DNA from: Hellea sp.
GTDB taxonomy: Bacteria > Pseudomonadota > Alphaproteobacteria > Caulobacterales > Maricaulaceae
Length of the DNA: 64,000 nucleotides
Assembly: GCA_014238285.1 (NCBI GenBank)
Contig: JABABK010000006.1
Coordinates: 41,666-105,665 of the forward strand
Reading direction: 5' to 3'
The translations under genes and the position numbers were made by a program. The notes below the pieces were generated by a model. That model saw only the letters and a program-made list of their open reading frames with translations. It did no database searches and was not told the DNA's origin. Positions 11,485 to 25,229 of this stretch are shown here, piece by piece; position 1 is the stretch's first letter; every line of letters begins with the position of its first letter.

Positions 11485-12639
11485 CTATCCGCGTTTATAA
11501 TTATGGGGCGCAAATGGCATTTTCACGACCTTGGCAGGCCGGGCCTTACCCCGAACAATAAGATTAAGCGGTGTGCCCGCTTTGAAGTTTTTACGGGTGA
11601 CATAACCCATAGCGATTGGGCCGCCGACGGTTGGGCCAAAACCACCTGATGTAATTTCGCCGATCTTATTTCCGTCCATGTCCTGAATTTCAGTATGCTC
11701 GCGTGCTGGCGCTCTACCCTCGGGCAAAATACCGACCAATCGCTTGCTTTGCTTATTGGCAAGATCGGCTTCTATTCGGGCCGCGCCTATATAGTCACAG
11801 CCGCTGCGGCGGTGTTTTTGAACAGACCAGATCAGTCCGGCTTCAATCGGCGACACAGTGGTATCAATATCATGGCCGTAAAGACAAAGCCCGGCTTCCA
11901 TACGAAGACTATCGCGGGCGCCAAGACCGATAAGCTCCACATCGGGATGCTCTAAAAGCTTATCAACAAGCCATTCTGCGTCAGGATGTTTGACAGCGAT
12001 TTCATAGCCGTCTTCGCCCGTATAGCCAGAGCGCGACACATGACACCAGCAATCGGCCATGGTCTCACCTAAGGGTAAATCCGTATGGGTCATAAAGATC
12101 AAATCTTTGACCTTAGCGTTCAAACTTCCTAAAACTTCGGCCGCTTTTGGGCCTTGAAGCGCAATCAAGGACATACTGTCATCCAAAATATCTAATTTGA
12201 CATTATCAGGTATATGCTTTTGCAAATGTGCATAATCTTGATCTTTACAGCCCGCATTCACAACCAAATAGATTTTATGGGTATGGCCTGCAAATCCAAG
12301 GCGGGAGATCATCAGATCATCAAGAATACCGCCTTCTTCATTGAGGAATTGGGAATAGCGCTGCTGACCAGGCTCTAAGCTTTGAATATCAGCGGGGACG
12401 AGTTTCTCTAGCGCCTTGGCTGCCGTTGCAAAATCGCCGTCTTCAGGAATGAGGAAACACTGTCCCATATGAGAGACGTCAAACAATCCACATTTTTCGC
12501 GGGTGTGTTCATGCTCTTTCATAATACCAAGCGGATATTGCACGGGCATATCATAGCCGGCAAAGGGCACCATTTTTGCGCCCGCAGCCACGTGTATAGC
12601 GTGGAGCGTTGTTTTGATTAAGTCTTGTGTATCAGTCAT
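11485..12639 (-). CDS. gcvT: Glycine cleavage system T protein (aminomethyltransferase)
   Basis: [38 protein letters not shown]...[22 protein letters not shown]. Confidence 0.96.
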
Positions 12640-17947: not shown

Positions 17948-18397
17948 ATGGGCGTTTCGTTTAATGTGTGGCTGCTAATTTTAGGTCCGATGGTTTTCGG
18001 TCTCGCAATTAAATGGCCACGCAAAGACAACGATATTATTTATAGCAGCAAAGTTGGTATAATCCGGAGGTTTAGCGCATTTATTATCGATCTATATATC
18101 GCTGGGATAGGAATACTGCCAATTATTTGCCTTCCTTCACTACTATTAGAATACATGGCGACTGGAGAATGGCAGTGGAGTTTTCAACGAGGTTTTTTTC
18201 GTAAAACCGACATAATCGGGAATATTTTCTTCTTCGTTGGAATTTACGGAATTTACAAATATTTCAACTGGCATTTTAAAAACCATATGCAAACCATTGG
18301 GCAATATTTATTGCGATTTACGCTTATACCGACCCAAAATGATTTGGGTTACAAAGGAAATGCAAGAAAAATCAAAATTCGGCAAAAAGAGGACTAG
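17948..18397 (+). CDS. RDD-like integral membrane protein
   Basis: GIIRRFSAFIIDLYIAGIG and QTIGQYLLRFTLI, RDD-like motif plus hydrophobic segments. Confidence 0.55.
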   Translation: MGVSFNVWLLILGPMVFGLAIKWPRKDNDIIYSSKVGIIRRFSAFIIDLYIAGIGILPIICLPSLLLEYMATGEWQWSFQRGFFRKTDIIGNIFFFVGIYGIYKYFNWHFKNHMQTIGQYLLRFTLIPTQNDLGYKGNARKIKIRQKED

Positions 18398-18487
18398 TTA
18401 ACACTTTCGTGATCGCTACTTGCAAATTCTCGTGCACGACATCACTTAAACACATACCAACAAACAGAGTTCAGTAGGGAGCAAAAT

Positions 18488-18994
18488 ATGTCTAACACAA
18501 CAGAACGAGCCGTCCTCGCCGGTGGATGCTTTTGGGGTATGCAGGATTTGATCCGCAAAAAGCCCGGTGTCCTTAGGACGAATGTTGGCTATACAGGCGG
18601 CGATGTTCCAAACGCGACTTATCGCGACCATGGAACTCACGCCGAAGGTATAGAGATCAACTTTGACCCAAGCATCATAAGCTACCGCGAGATTTTAGAA
18701 CTGTTTTTCCAAATCCACGACCCGACGACAAAAAACCGTCAGGGCGGTGATGTTGGGCTATCTTATAGATCAGAGATTTTCTACACGAGCGACGCTCAAA
18801 AAGAAGAAGCCCTTCGCACTATTAAGGATGTCGACGCATCAGGCCTGTGGCCAGGTCCCGTTGTCACGCCGGTTACGGCCGTTTCCGAATTTTGGCCCGC
18901 CGAGCCCGAGCACCAAGATTATCTTGAAACTCGCCCGAATGGCTATACGTGCCATTTCGCCCGACCCGGGTGGAAGCTGCCTAGCAGCTCATAA
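18488..18994 (+). CDS. msrA: Peptide-methionine (S)-S-oxide reductase
   Basis: [50 protein letters not shown]. Confidence 0.96.
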
Positions 18995-19045
18995 TCCTAT
19001 TTCTGCCGCTTTCTAAGCGGTAGCCTCATTTAATAGGAGAGACAT

Positions 19046-19534
19046 ATGTCTATTGGTATCAACCATCAAAAAGCGCCTGAACTTCGTGTTCCGTATTGGA
19101 TCGACGGTAAAGGCAATAAAACGAAGCCCTTAAGCCTGTCTGATTTAGGCAAAGGATATCAGATCATTTACTGTTTTCAGAGCTGGTGTCCCGGATGTCA
19201 TTCGCGCGGTTTTCCAACGCTGAAAAAGCTTGTCGACAACCTGTCTGATAAAGGTTTTGGGTTTGCCGTCGTGCAAACAGTATTTGAAGGCGCAGATCAA
19301 AACACGCCGGATATGCTCAGAGAAATGCAGATTAAATATGACCTAAATATTCCATTTGGCCATGATCAGAACGACGGCTCTTATCCGAGCGTCATGGAAG
19401 ATTATAGATCAGGCGGGACGCCGTGGTTCATTTTAATCGATCCAAATGGCGGCGTTGTTTTCAACGATTTTGGCCTAGACGCAGACAAACTCATTGACGC
19501 CATATCGAGTGACGATGTTACAATGACGGCCTGA
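19046..19534 (+). CDS. Thioredoxin/TlpA-like redoxin, cytoplasmic
   Basis: IIYCFQSWCPGCHSRGFPTLKKL CxxC motif and GGTPWFILIDPNG cis-Pro; no signal peptide. Confidence 0.85.
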   Translation: MSIGINHQKAPELRVPYWIDGKGNKTKPLSLSDLGKGYQIIYCFQSWCPGCHSRGFPTLKKLVDNLSDKGFGFAVVQTVFEGADQNTPDMLREMQIKYDLNIPFGHDQNDGSYPSVMEDYRSGGTPWFILIDPNGGVVFNDFGLDADKLIDAISSDDVTMTA

Positions 19535-21032: not shown

Positions 21033-21079
21033 CTGAAATTCAAGCTAACCGAATATCTAAGCCGATTGAACATTTTACT

Positions 21080-21619
21080 TTAGTCGCGGGTGAGGTCAGA
21101 GTTTTTATTTATTTCAAACCGGTCCCAAGATTTGATTTCTTTTAGTTCTTTATCGGATAAAGTAACGACGAAAGTAGCGGAACTTTTTAGAAGCACAGGC
21201 GTTTCACCGAGCATTTCACTCAGCCGTAGGCTTAGTTCATTTAATAATTTTTCATTATCAGGCACTGTGATTTTTGGCGCGCTTCCAGACAAATCCTTAT
21301 TTGGAGATTTCCTCCACCGCTCCAATCTTTCATTCGGAGCTTTCATCCGGTCTTCAAGAATGGCTTCGTCCAACTCAGAGTTATAGTCTGATATCAAAGA
21401 TAAAAAATACGATTGCTCATTCGATTGAGAAATATTCGTCTGTTCTTTCATAGAAGACTGATCAGAATTTTTAGGCTTTTCCAGAGATCCTTTTTCAGAC
21501 GCGCTCACACCATTCCCTTTTTCTGACGGTTGAATGGTCGCATTTTTGTCCCCACACCCCATTACGGTGCAGAGTCCTGTAACGACAATTAAAGACTTTA
21601 CTCGGCTAAATATATTCAC
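21080..21619 (-). CDS. Predicted lipoprotein with C-terminal I9-like (subtilisin propeptide-like) segment
   Basis: MNIFSRVKSLIVVTGLCTVMGCGDKN lipobox-like; C-terminus SSATFVVTLSDKELKEIKSWDRFEINKNSDL resembles the I9 inhibitor core; 7 nt downstream of the subtilase. Confidence 0.6.
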   Translation of the reverse strand: MNIFSRVKSLIVVTGLCTVMGCGDKNATIQPSEKGNGVSASEKGSLEKPKNSDQSSMKEQTNISQSNEQSYFLSLISDYNSELDEAILEDRMKAPNERLERWRKSPNKDLSGSAPKITVPDNEKLLNELSLRLSEMLGETPVLLKSSATFVVTLSDKELKEIKSWDRFEINKNSDLTRD

Positions 21620-21626
21620 TCGAATA

Positions 21627-23180
21627 TTAATACCCTAATTCTTTAGCTGCGTCGATAGCGCGGTGCACATCTAATAATCCAAACCCGTAACGCTGATCTT
21701 TCCCCATTTCGCCGTAAGGGCGAACCGTAGCTTCCAAAATATCCCGTAAAAGAAATGCTCTTTGATCACTTGGAATTCCATTCATATCCATTTCAGCCAA
21801 TAAAAGAGCTGCACAACCAGCAACATGCGGGGTCGCCATGGATGTCCCATTATAACTATCGTGGCGCTCATTTGGAACGCAAGAGAATATTCCAACACCG
21901 GGCGCGGAGAGATCAGGTTTTTGGTAAACAAAGTCGCCTTGTTGATGCACTTTCCCGCCGCTAAAACCTGCACAGCGGAATTCTACATCATGGGCTCCAA
22001 CGCCTAGAGTATAAATATCTGCACCAGGTTGTCCGCTGGTATTGAGCCCATTATTTCCGATTGCACCGACGACGAGCGTCCCTTGCATCAAAGCCGCCAT
22101 AAGTTGGCGCCTGTAAGGCGTCAAAAGTTGTGCATCAAACTGCAAATCGCCTAAAGACATATTAATTATGTCGGCTCCATTTTGGATGGCCCAGTCCATT
22201 CCAGCCAGAATTTGAGCGACAGTTCCGCTGCCTCTGTTTAGAACCAACCCCCCCATAATTTCACACTCAGGTGCTACACCAACCCATTGACCGCTACTTT
22301 TTCCGCCAGCTATTGAACCGGCGACATGAGTGCCATGGGTTGCTGAATCATGGGCGCTTGAGCCAGATACAGTATTTCCGTTACGATCAAATTCTGCCCA
22401 AGATGTTACTCGCCCTAGAAGATCAGGATGGGATGCATCTATACCCGTATCAAGAACCGCTACCTTTACCGCTAGGCCTGACGTAATATCTTTTCCCTTT
22501 TGTCCATAGGTCCCCCAAACGGCACTGGCACCACAACTGTGGACGCCCCAGGATTGAGATGAATATCTTGAAGAACCGATGCCCATACTTGGCTTAGCAG
22601 ACTTGGACACCGCGGGTGTCTCAATTTTCTTGTTCTCATAAATTCCGCCAATATCATCACGTTTTTCCGTAACAATTTTGCTCAAATTGTCTCGCGAAAC
22701 TGTAAACAAAACACTATTCGCATTTCGAAGTTTTGACGGTTGCTTCCGTTTGCTTTGAATAACAGATTTGTTGACGACATCAGAACTTAGAAACGCATCT
22801 TGTTTGAATGAAGTATTTTCATCTAAAAATAATTGCCCTTTCTTTCCGACACCAAAAACCTGCGATGCAAAGCTACCTTGGTTTCCACGCGGCGCCCGTG
22901 TTCTGGTTTTTACAATCGATTCTTTCTTTGCAGGGAGAAGTTCTCGAGGATCAACAATGGTTGAACGAAAGCGTTCTATCTGTGATGTTTTCGCCGAAAG
23001 TTCTTCCATGATTTGCTCTTCGACAGGCGACGCTTTCATTTGAACAATGACATCAAGCGTGTCTTTTCCTTCCGATTTATCCATTATTTCTTGGAACTGA
23101 AGCATATTCATTAGAAGTTCTCCTAAAGCGTTTTTTGGGATGATGTTTTGAGTTTTCATCCCTCCTTTGGTCCCAGCCAC
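21627..23180 (-). CDS. S8 family (subtilisin-like) serine peptidase, no signal peptide
   Basis: Catalytic motifs VAVLDTGIDASHPDL (Asp), HGTHVAGSIAG (His), YNGTSMATPHVAG (Ser); N-terminal ~230 aa contains an I9-like stretch; 5' end could be the GTG at 23180 or the ATG at 23159. Confidence 0.92.
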   Translation of the reverse strand: MAGTKGGMKTQNIIPKNALGELLMNMLQFQEIMDKSEGKDTLDVIVQMKASPVEEQIMEELSAKTSQIERFRSTIVDPRELLPAKKESIVKTRTRAPRGNQGSFASQVFGVGKKGQLFLDENTSFKQDAFLSSDVVNKSVIQSKRKQPSKLRNANSVLFTVSRDNLSKIVTEKRDDIGGIYENKKIETPAVSKSAKPSMGIGSSRYSSQSWGVHSCGASAVWGTYGQKGKDITSGLAVKVAVLDTGIDASHPDLLGRVTSWAEFDRNGNTVSGSSAHDSATHGTHVAGSIAGGKSSGQWVGVAPECEIMGGLVLNRGSGTVAQILAGMDWAIQNGADIINMSLGDLQFDAQLLTPYRRQLMAALMQGTLVVGAIGNNGLNTSGQPGADIYTLGVGAHDVEFRCAGFSGGKVHQQGDFVYQKPDLSAPGVGIFSCVPNERHDSYNGTSMATPHVAGCAALLLAEMDMNGIPSDQRAFLLRDILEATVRPYGEMGKDQRYGFGLLDVHRAIDAAKELGY

Positions 23181-23306
23181 TATAACAGAATAAAAAAAAT
23201 GACGCCGTGACGAAAGTCACATCGCTTGAACGAAAAACATGTTAAGTGATCCGAACTACTGGGGGGAAAACAACGGGTAAAGTAGAATATTTGTTGAGGC
23301 ATTTAC

Positions 23307-24200
23307 ATGGGATATGATCAAAATTTCTTAAACGGACATACAATACCTCTGCCTCAACCGAGCCAAAGTACGCTAGAAGCCTCATTCAATGATGGCGAAT
23401 ATGTCGGCCATTCTAGATATTCTCTTCTATTTAATAAAAACCGCGGGTTTGCTTTTTGCTCAGCTCACAATATTGACGGGCAAACACTTCGACCCGCACA
23501 ATTATCCAACCGAAGATTCAGGCCAGACCCCCTAATCAATCCTAGAGAGCTACAGATAGAAAATGATCGCGGGTATAAATTTAACGATTGGGACCGCGGA
23601 CATCTTGCACGGCGAAAAAGTTTGTCCTGGGGCTTAGATGACGATGAAACAATAATAGCCGAACAAGAAAGCGATTTTTATTCTAATATTGTCCCACAAC
23701 ATGAAAACTTACATGATGATGCTTGGGGGGAAATCGAAGATTGGATGCTGGAAAAATCCTTGTCAGGCTCGAAAAGAGCCTGTGTTTTCACTGGCCCTGT
23801 ATTTACAGAAAATGACCCATCACATAAAAATGCAGATGACCAAATTCCTTTTCAAATACCAGCAGGTTTTTGGAAAGTGATTGTTGTCCCAGATGGAAGT
23901 GAAATCAAATCTGCCTCATTTCTTGTCTGGCAAAGGGACTATGATAGCCCCACACCCTTACCTTTTGCACCAATTTTGGAACAAGTTCGCCTCACGACAA
24001 TAGAAGTAATCACAGGATTATCTTTTCACGACCTTAGTCAAAAAGATGTCATATTATTCGCAGCTCAAAGCAGACAAAGAGATGCTATAGCCTCTATAGC
24101 TCGAGCCCAGTCTTTTGGCGGTCGCATAAGGAATGCACTTTCTCGGCCAAAACCATCGAGATCGAACGCAATATTATCGTCAGCTGACATCATTTTTTGA
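23307..24200 (+). CDS. DNA/RNA non-specific endonuclease (NUC1/EndoG-like beta-beta-alpha-Me)
   Basis: YKFNDWDRGHLARRKSLSWG DRGH motif and FYSNIVPQHENLHDDAWGEIEDWM; no signal peptide. Confidence 0.88.
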   Translation: MGYDQNFLNGHTIPLPQPSQSTLEASFNDGEYVGHSRYSLLFNKNRGFAFCSAHNIDGQTLRPAQLSNRRFRPDPLINPRELQIENDRGYKFNDWDRGHLARRKSLSWGLDDDETIIAEQESDFYSNIVPQHENLHDDAWGEIEDWMLEKSLSGSKRACVFTGPVFTENDPSHKNADDQIPFQIPAGFWKVIVVPDGSEIKSASFLVWQRDYDSPTPLPFAPILEQVRLTTIEVITGLSFHDLSQKDVILFAAQSRQRDAIASIARAQSFGGRIRNALSRPKPSRSNAILSSADIIF

Positions 24201-24239
24201 AATATGCGCTTTGGTTCTACCCAAACACGCGCCGCAACC

Positions 24240-25199
24240 TCATGCCTGACCTGCATTCATAAACTTCTTAATATGATCACAGACCATTTTTGGGCTTTCG
24301 ATTTCCAAATGATGTCCCGTATCAGTAATTAATTTTACCTTGGCTTGCGGAACATATTGCCGAAGGCCGTCTCGCGGAGAATCCCAATGCGAAGGATCTG
24401 CATCCCCCCATAAAATTAGCGTAGGTTGAGGCGCTCCGGAAAATTCGCCCTCATGGGACATAAAATAAACCTGCCGCAAAGACGACATGCAATTGCATGC
24501 GCCCTTTGCAAACATATGTTGTGATATCTTGATCAATTCCTCAATTAAGTCCGCGTGACGTTCGGGTTTGTAGATAACATGCGGATAAGTTTTTTCACCG
24601 AATACAGGTTCCGTTCGCGAAGCTATAAGCTGAGCAACATACGGAATTCTAACAATTATTCCGCCAAGTTTCGGGATACCTGTCACTAATCTCACAAATT
24701 TCTCAGCTGTCCGGCCAACCCATTTTCGTTCAGTCTTGATGTCCGTTGCCTGCATAAGAACCAGTTTTGTAATTAAGTCTGGACGTTCACGGGCAGCTCT
24801 CATGGCGCCATAGGTTGCAACGCAGGGTGCTGTCAGCGTGTAGGATTTAAACTCTAAGGCTTCGAGCGTTTCAATTATTGCTTTCGCGTGATCCTTGACA
24901 CCAAAGCCATATCCAGCTTTAGGGAAAGAAAACCCAAAACTTGGTTGTTCAATACAAACAATACTGACGCTATCATCAAATTGCGAAAAAACATCGTCAA
25001 AATGTTCAACCAGATTCGGTGGATCACAAAGGAAAACGACAGCATGCGGGGAACTCCGTTTTACTCGAACACGGATATGTGTGTCCGAGAGTTCCAACAT
25101 TCTCACACCATCTCTTGTGGAGGTAACGTCTTGCCAATTTACCCTTGCATAGCGGCGCATTAAGCGCCAACGGTCATAGGCTGCACCATTCATGGTCAA
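24240..25199 (-). CDS. Alpha/beta hydrolase
   Basis: VVFLCDPPNLVEHFDDVF...TLILWGDADPSHWDSPRDGLRQYVPQAKVKLITDTGHHLEIESP. Confidence 0.78.
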   Translation of the reverse strand: MTMNGAAYDRWRLMRRYARVNWQDVTSTRDGVRMLELSDTHIRVRVKRSSPHAVVFLCDPPNLVEHFDDVFSQFDDSVSIVCIEQPSFGFSFPKAGYGFGVKDHAKAIIETLEALEFKSYTLTAPCVATYGAMRAARERPDLITKLVLMQATDIKTERKWVGRTAEKFVRLVTGIPKLGGIIVRIPYVAQLIASRTEPVFGEKTYPHVIYKPERHADLIEELIKISQHMFAKGACNCMSSLRQVYFMSHEGEFSGAPQPTLILWGDADPSHWDSPRDGLRQYVPQAKVKLITDTGHHLEIESPKMVCDHIKKFMNAGQA

Positions 25200-25229
25200 A
25201 TCCTTAGCGTGTCCTTCCGCTAGGTTTCC

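Follow-up and report, generated by a model that had tools for sequence, protein, structure and literature searches.

The genome of Hellea sp. carries, within the stretch of 64,000 nucleotides analysed here (the window), a leaderless subtilase gene, a small gene directly behind it and a divergently oriented nuclease gene, and the question arises whether these three genes work together. The original prediction had seen in them a protease, an in-trans inhibitor or immunity lipoprotein and a nuclease acting as partner or substrate. The genes belong to a block (21033-25229) between selO and a DUF4197 gene which contains the small partner gene, the S8 subtilase gene, the NUC1 nuclease gene and, convergent with the latter, an alpha/beta-hydrolase gene on the minus strand (24240-25199; PF00561, E 5e-8). 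The block is absent from congener G555 (L132), where selO ends at 11732 and is directly followed by the DUF4197 gene at 11820-12542; the three genes and the hydrolase gene therefore look inserted, the empty site being known from this one congener. In a large part of the block, GC content falls locally to 39-45%. As the interval between rnhA and selO also differs from G555, the site is variable: RDD-like, msrA and redoxin genes (17948-19534) found there in the window are absent in the congener. The arrangement fits the arrival of all four genes as one insertion. A search at E 1e-30 revealed no homologue of the hydrolase in 58 other genomes of the family, and this protein is possibly a passenger or a fourth component. 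Neither a sensor (STAND, CARD or TIR) nor EAD1 was seen in the block.

The subtilase is encoded on the minus strand (21627-23180) and was identified by a match to PF00082 (E 8e-52). All three catalytic motifs that had been claimed are present, namely DTGI at residue 244, HGTH at residue 282 and GTSMA at residue 445, and an alignment of 12 family members with 39-43% identity showed the motifs of the Asp-His-Ser triad to be invariant or nearly so. The listed start, GTG 23180, is not accompanied by a good ribosome binding site, and an ATG at 23111 (residue 24) is preceded by AGGAG 8 nt upstream, which makes it the likelier start codon. If the gene begins at 23111, its distance to the nuclease gene becomes 195 bp instead of the 126 bp that hold for the listed start. 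Within this divergent intergenic region (23112-23306) neither repeats nor promoters stood out above background, with the promoter scan remaining at the level of shuffled sequences, and no convincing shared operator was found.

An N-terminal prodomain of the I9 type is predicted for residues 24-190, approximately, of the listed reading frame (22612-23111, minus strand). It did not match Pfam I9 (PF05922) by sequence alone and is supported by the AF2 model of the protease (pTM 0.84), in which the prodomain elements occur in the order b-a-...-b-a-b (E19-26, H30-52, E134-140, H141-149 and E155-160, numbered from residue 23) and the two halves of the fold are separated by a family-specific insertion. 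The best Foldseek matches of this model were unprocessed pro-subtilisins, aligned over about 400 columns.

A search of plasmids revealed one homologue of the protease over its full length, carried by a plasmid of Piscinibacter (L073; 36% identity over 98%), and a scan of 84,980 genomes with a profile built from two sequences yielded 13 further family members. These are 37-43% identical along their whole length or the greater part of it, except for a truncated member that showed 50% identity over a shorter stretch. Their hosts are Leptolyngbya, Chryseolinea, a Cytophagales MAG, Planctomycetota (three), Sphingomonas (two), Lysobacterales, Burkholderiales, Verrucomicrobiales, Magnetococcales and Prochloraceae, and the family is scattered over the phyla Cyanobacteria, Bacteroidota, Planctomycetota, Verrucomicrobiota and Pseudomonadota. 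Members scored 564-802 bits with the family HMM (414 bits for the truncated one) and the next S8 proteins at most 302 bits, which assigns the window protease, as judged from these scores, to a sharply separated leaderless subfamily. The family was found in only one of 372 genomes of the class, namely that of the window itself, and a search through 399 genomes of the phylum added four loci, a fifth (G679) being a repeat of L089. None of 74 other family genomes related to the Verrucomicrobiales MAG (L087) carried the protease. Viral contigs (best 80) and phage records contained distant S8 proteins only. The distribution is sparse and patchy across phyla. Three more clustered S8 genes occur in the window's own genome (G000:C88:39401-44016) and lie outside the leaderless family.

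The small partner gene (21080-21619, minus strand) begins with GTG 7 nt past the stop codon of the subtilase gene, as had been described. Its conserved part comprises residues 60-179, approximately, and follows a low-complexity linker rich in Ser, Lys and Gln. A homologue was found beside or near the subtilase gene in all 17 family loci with downstream DNA, that is 16 other loci and the window; L079 and L081, in which the contig edge is reached, were left out of this count, as were L020 and L021, two loci with a more distant S8 protein and a small downstream reading frame, because the homology of these frames to the partner was not established (7% and 13% identity). The homologues, usually of about 115-155 aa, were matched by a profile of such partners; they are encoded next to the protease gene except in L088, where the genes are convergent, and in L083, where they are about 1.5 kb apart. 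A leave-one-out HMM of the relatives ranked the window partner first among all reading frames of the window (E 1.4e-7), and so did the same HMM when the two nearest relatives were omitted as well (E 0.0055). Neither some 30 distant S8 genes of the genome scan nor 80 viral S8 genes had a neighbour matching the partner profile, and the viral loci likewise lacked a NUC1 gene. A simple homologue search detected no relatives of the partner in 150 genomes of the order or in plasmids; the relatives came to light only as neighbours of S8 genes. On the Piscinibacter plasmid the partner reading frame (L073:2581-2973) is missing from the gene table distributed with the record, an example of how this small gene can escape annotation.

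What does the partner do? Peptides resembling the end of an I9 propeptide had been noticed in the N-terminal region of the protease and at the end of the partner, and both were located there. This resemblance exceeds chance across the families: when the partner family was aligned profile to profile (hhalign) with the N-terminal regions of the proteases themselves, the match had a probability of 96% and E 3.8e-9 and covered the C-terminal half of the fold. As the partner profile matches the prodomain profile, the partner is probably a paralogue of the prodomain that acts as an inhibitor in trans, and together with its occurrence in 17 of 17 loci this makes inhibition the best reading of the gene, as the original prediction had assumed. 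The link between the S8 protease and its I9-like partner is strong. Pfam, NCBIfam and PADLOC returned no significant match for the window partner; three homologues matched Pfam I9 (PF05922) below threshold (E 0.04-0.08) in the same C-terminal half and the window partner did not, and the family is accordingly called I9-like by profile-profile comparison only, below the Pfam gathering threshold. The AF2 model of the partner (b-a-b-b-a-b) has its elements in the same order as the prodomain of the protease model and was of modest overall confidence, with pLDDT values of mostly 79-91 in the last 50 aa. A fold search with this low-confidence model gave nothing significant, and as the prodomain-like entries 2lu2 (MIC5) and 8gkp appeared only among weak ferredoxin-like matches, it was not used as proof.

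The partner had also been described as a lipoprotein. Translation from GTG 21619 indeed yields a hydrophobic segment (KD 2.26) followed by a TVMGC lipobox with putative cleavage before C22. This start codon has a weak context, and the alternative start M57 (21451), which has no visible ribosome site, would give a 123-aa protein of the size of the homologues. The lipobox pattern was found as described but is not general, as all eight homologues checked lack a lipobox or leader; it appears to be peculiar to the window partner, where the start codon is ambiguous. An exported lipoprotein would be separated from a cytosolic protease, which is a conflict if the leader is real; a mis-assigned start or a secondary relocalisation may each resolve it. 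Alternatively, the lipoprotein may be an immunity factor of the outer membrane, guarding the envelope or neighbouring cells against a protease freed by lysis or by an unrecognised export route. The hydrophobic N-terminus, the lipobox, the linker and the I9-like C-terminus agree with such a compartment-split effector-immunity pair. Yet homologues without this leader, a protease and a nuclease without signals and the alternative start at M57, from which a protein like those of the relatives would be made, all speak against it, and we regard it as improbable.

The nuclease gene on the plus strand (23307-24200) encodes a leaderless NUC1/Endonuclease_NS protein (PF01223, E 1e-31) that stands alone. 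The predicted DRGH motif is located at residues 96-99 and is accompanied by an N/W/E motif in an alignment with the Serratia nuclease (1g8t) and EndoG; the downstream metal-binding Asn/Glu motif is present in the alignment with 1g8t. Relatives sharing the N-terminal motif GY(D/N)PxFL form C- or N-terminal parts of fusions with trypsin-like proteases, and others carry a lamin-tail-like domain or adjoin a caspase gene. In a phylogenetic tree the window nuclease is placed on a long branch (1.96) inside this protease-associated clade and groups weakly with a relative neighboured by a caspase gene; its C-terminal ADIIF resembles, by eye, the tails of trypsin-fused relatives. The clade is usually protease-associated, either by fusion to a trypsin-like domain or by a caspase neighbour. 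On a plasmid of Sinorhizobium mexicanum (L076:3421-7965), a caspase-family gene, a gene for a 525-aa protein without Pfam match and a NUC1-trypsin fusion gene follow each other. In a sub-clade (L009:1486-2751, L060, L061, L068 and L071) a C-terminal extension replaces the protease; it matches the Lamin Tail Domain below threshold in L009 and was recognised by eye in the others.

Proteases of the S8 type and NUC1 nucleases are often secreted and nutritional, so both enzymes of the window might simply be unrelated scavenging enzymes with overlooked signal peptides, as the original prediction had itself cautioned. However, no hydrophobic stretch or signal peptide was found at the N-terminus of either protein, and among the 13 other S8 family members scanned only L088 showed a hydrophobic N-terminal stretch. 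Moreover, the NUC1 homologues either have this GYDPxFL motif at their very beginning or are preceded by a trypsin domain, again with no leader, and the secreted-type relatives form a separate branch of the tree. Secreted scavenging enzymes were rejected on the absence of signal peptides from S8 and NUC1, and we consider this explanation very improbable.

The neighbourhood of an S8-I9 pair and a NUC1 domain recurs independently in one of 18 other loci, the Verrucomicrobiales MAG (L087:2388-7610), where the genes for the protease, its partner and a protein of 943 aa, in which Trypsin_2, Endonuclease_NS and GDSL lipase domains are joined, follow each other on the same strand. The protease of this locus has an unassigned N-terminal extension of roughly 130 aa. 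In the remaining 17 of the 18 loci no NUC1 gene was found within the available flanks, and the nuclease is therefore at most an occasional partner. NUC1 genes occur in roughly 3-7% of genomes; a rough model, which leaves out the window as the discovery case, puts the chance of at least one NUC1 neighbour among 17 other loci at about 0.0006-0.007. Taken together, the claim of a nuclease partner is backed by the recurrence in L087, the protease-associated clade and the single insertion but weakened by the other loci, and we regard the link of NUC1 to the S8-I9 pair as moderate. These counts bear on a further explanation, in which protease and trans-prodomain form a self-contained unit of intracellular proteolysis or conflict and NUC1 is a separate gene of a variable locus. 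It agrees with the pair as the conserved core, with the divergent, not operonic, arrangement of the protease and nuclease genes and with the variable flanks of selO; it does not readily account for a NUC1 domain in the same gene string of L087 despite the low probability of chance, nor for a nuclease clade that is itself associated with proteases. We hold this explanation to be possible but rather doubtful.

Other neighbours were found as well. In L089/G679 (L089:6538-11950; the same locus as L139) a gene for a 1128-aa NACHT NTPase is located directly upstream of the protease and partner genes, and in G664 the reading frame upstream of the pair is similar to the C-terminus of this NACHT protein. 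Such a locus possibly represents a bacterial NLR with a subtilase effector, and the upstream NACHT NTPase fits a conflict setting. The stretch L141:8593-11462 contains a leaderless S8 gene with an I9-like partner, and a truncated upstream reading frame there resembles the C-terminus of the L089 NACHT protein. In L051:2586-10179 a more distant leaderless S8 gene is followed by a small reading frame and, downstream, by conjugation-like genes; TIR and TPR-S genes lie a few kb upstream of it.

We propose, with about even confidence for and against, that the three genes of the window constitute a horizontally acquired intracellular conflict module for suicide or defence, built from a subtilase under a brake and a NUC1 effector that works together with it. 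The cytosolic subtilase would carry an I9-type prodomain of its own from synthesis on, and its active site would in addition be plugged in trans by the separate prodomain paralogue (the product of 21080-21619), as by SUB1-ProM or POIA1. Degradation, titration or displacement of this brake in response to infection or damage may then free the subtilase to cooperate with the NUC1 nuclease of the divergent gene; in the simplest case it would activate or release the nuclease, and the DNA of the cell or of an invader would be destroyed. The protease family, the conserved partner, its homology to the prodomain, the nuclease clade, the one recurrence in L087 and the difference to the congener's site were obtained from sequences; inhibition, trigger, activation or cleavage of the nuclease and a role in defence are what we infer. 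Further points in favour of the module were the NACHT NTPase genes upstream of other pairs, the TIR and TPR-S genes of L051, the patchy distribution over phyla and the proven gating of pro-nucleases of another fold by proteases (see below). Counted against the module were the 17 of 18 loci without NUC1, the empty site in a single congener, the sensorless block, the possibly exported partner, the dispensability of the endonuclease in LypC (see below), the modest partner model and the sub-threshold match to Pfam I9.

A bolder version of the proposed module, which we put forward only tentatively, is a subtilase-gated NUC1 suicide nuclease in which loss of the trans-prodomain brake is itself the signal of infection or damage. 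It would be a bacterial counterpart of the logic of CAD/ICAD or HET-Q2/HET-Q1, and elsewhere the same pair of protease and brake might be joined to other sensors (e.g. the NACHT NTPase) or effectors. If the proposed module is right, subtilases would be a third class of proteases in protease-nuclease immune modules, with a built-in prodomain brake, and it would be explained why these sparse leaderless subtilases of several phyla are always accompanied by a small gene that lacks annotation. How such modules stay silent and what trips them could be approached directly through the brake.

The statement that no described system has this composition was too strong, as a prediction of NucA-peptidase systems, in part with S8 and NucA on one polypeptide, dates from 2020 (PMC7159879). 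'System 3' of Kaur et al. is a predicted conflict system of NucA (Endonuclease NS) and trypsin, found mostly in alphaproteobacteria, for which a proteolytic cascade was proposed (PMC7159879). The window shares with it a nuclease of the same superfamily coupled to a peptidase, and the optional combination of NucA with S8 appears in the window as divergent neighbours and in L087 as a string of genes. In contrast to System 3, the S8 protease of the window has a gene of its own, oriented divergently from the nuclease gene, and a dedicated partner that probably acts as a trans-prodomain; neither EAD1 nor STAND was seen in the block, and the trypsin domain that forms the core of System 3 is absent from the nuclease and the neighbouring gene products scanned, S8 being found instead.

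Two further bacterial comparisons concern proteases paired with nucleases. LypC of the CARD-NLR-like system LypABC of Caulobacter is a trypsin-endonuclease fusion whose endonuclease domain was aligned with NucA (PMC13236601), and thus combines, like the window, a serine protease with a NucA-type endonuclease. Its peptidase is needed for immune-like lysis while the endonuclease is dispensable (PMC13236601). Unlike the proteins of the window, however, LypC carries its trypsin domain in cis, needs LypA and LypB and has no I9 partner; neither a CARD-protease nor an NLR ATPase was found among the gene products of the block that were scanned. For the MBL pro-nucleases of Hachiman/AVAST and canu, activation by the paired protease is proven (PMC12799240). 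These systems resemble the window in their pair of protease and nuclease genes, but their nucleases have the MBL fold, whereas that of the window belongs to PF01223, and their proteases are trypsins or caspases and not S8; no inhibitor gene is reported in the searched text of that paper (PMC12799240).

The nearest described case for the partner is SUB1-ProM of Plasmodium, a stand-alone prodomain-like inhibitor that acts on a subtilase in trans and whose gene adjoins subtilase genes (PMC6993865); MIC5 and POIA1 are also comparable. SUB1-ProM differs in being eukaryotic and in lacking a nuclease, and the window partner adds a putative lipoprotein leader. The gating of a suicide effector by a subtilase is known from HET-Q2/HET-Q1 of Podospora, where the S8 gene is clustered with the gene of the effector that it activates (PMC10989679), although HET-Q1 is a gasdermin and the system serves fungal allorecognition. 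The locus described here belongs to a known kind, the NucA-peptidase conflict systems, to which it adds a new element, a conserved subtilase accompanied by a probable prodomain in trans.
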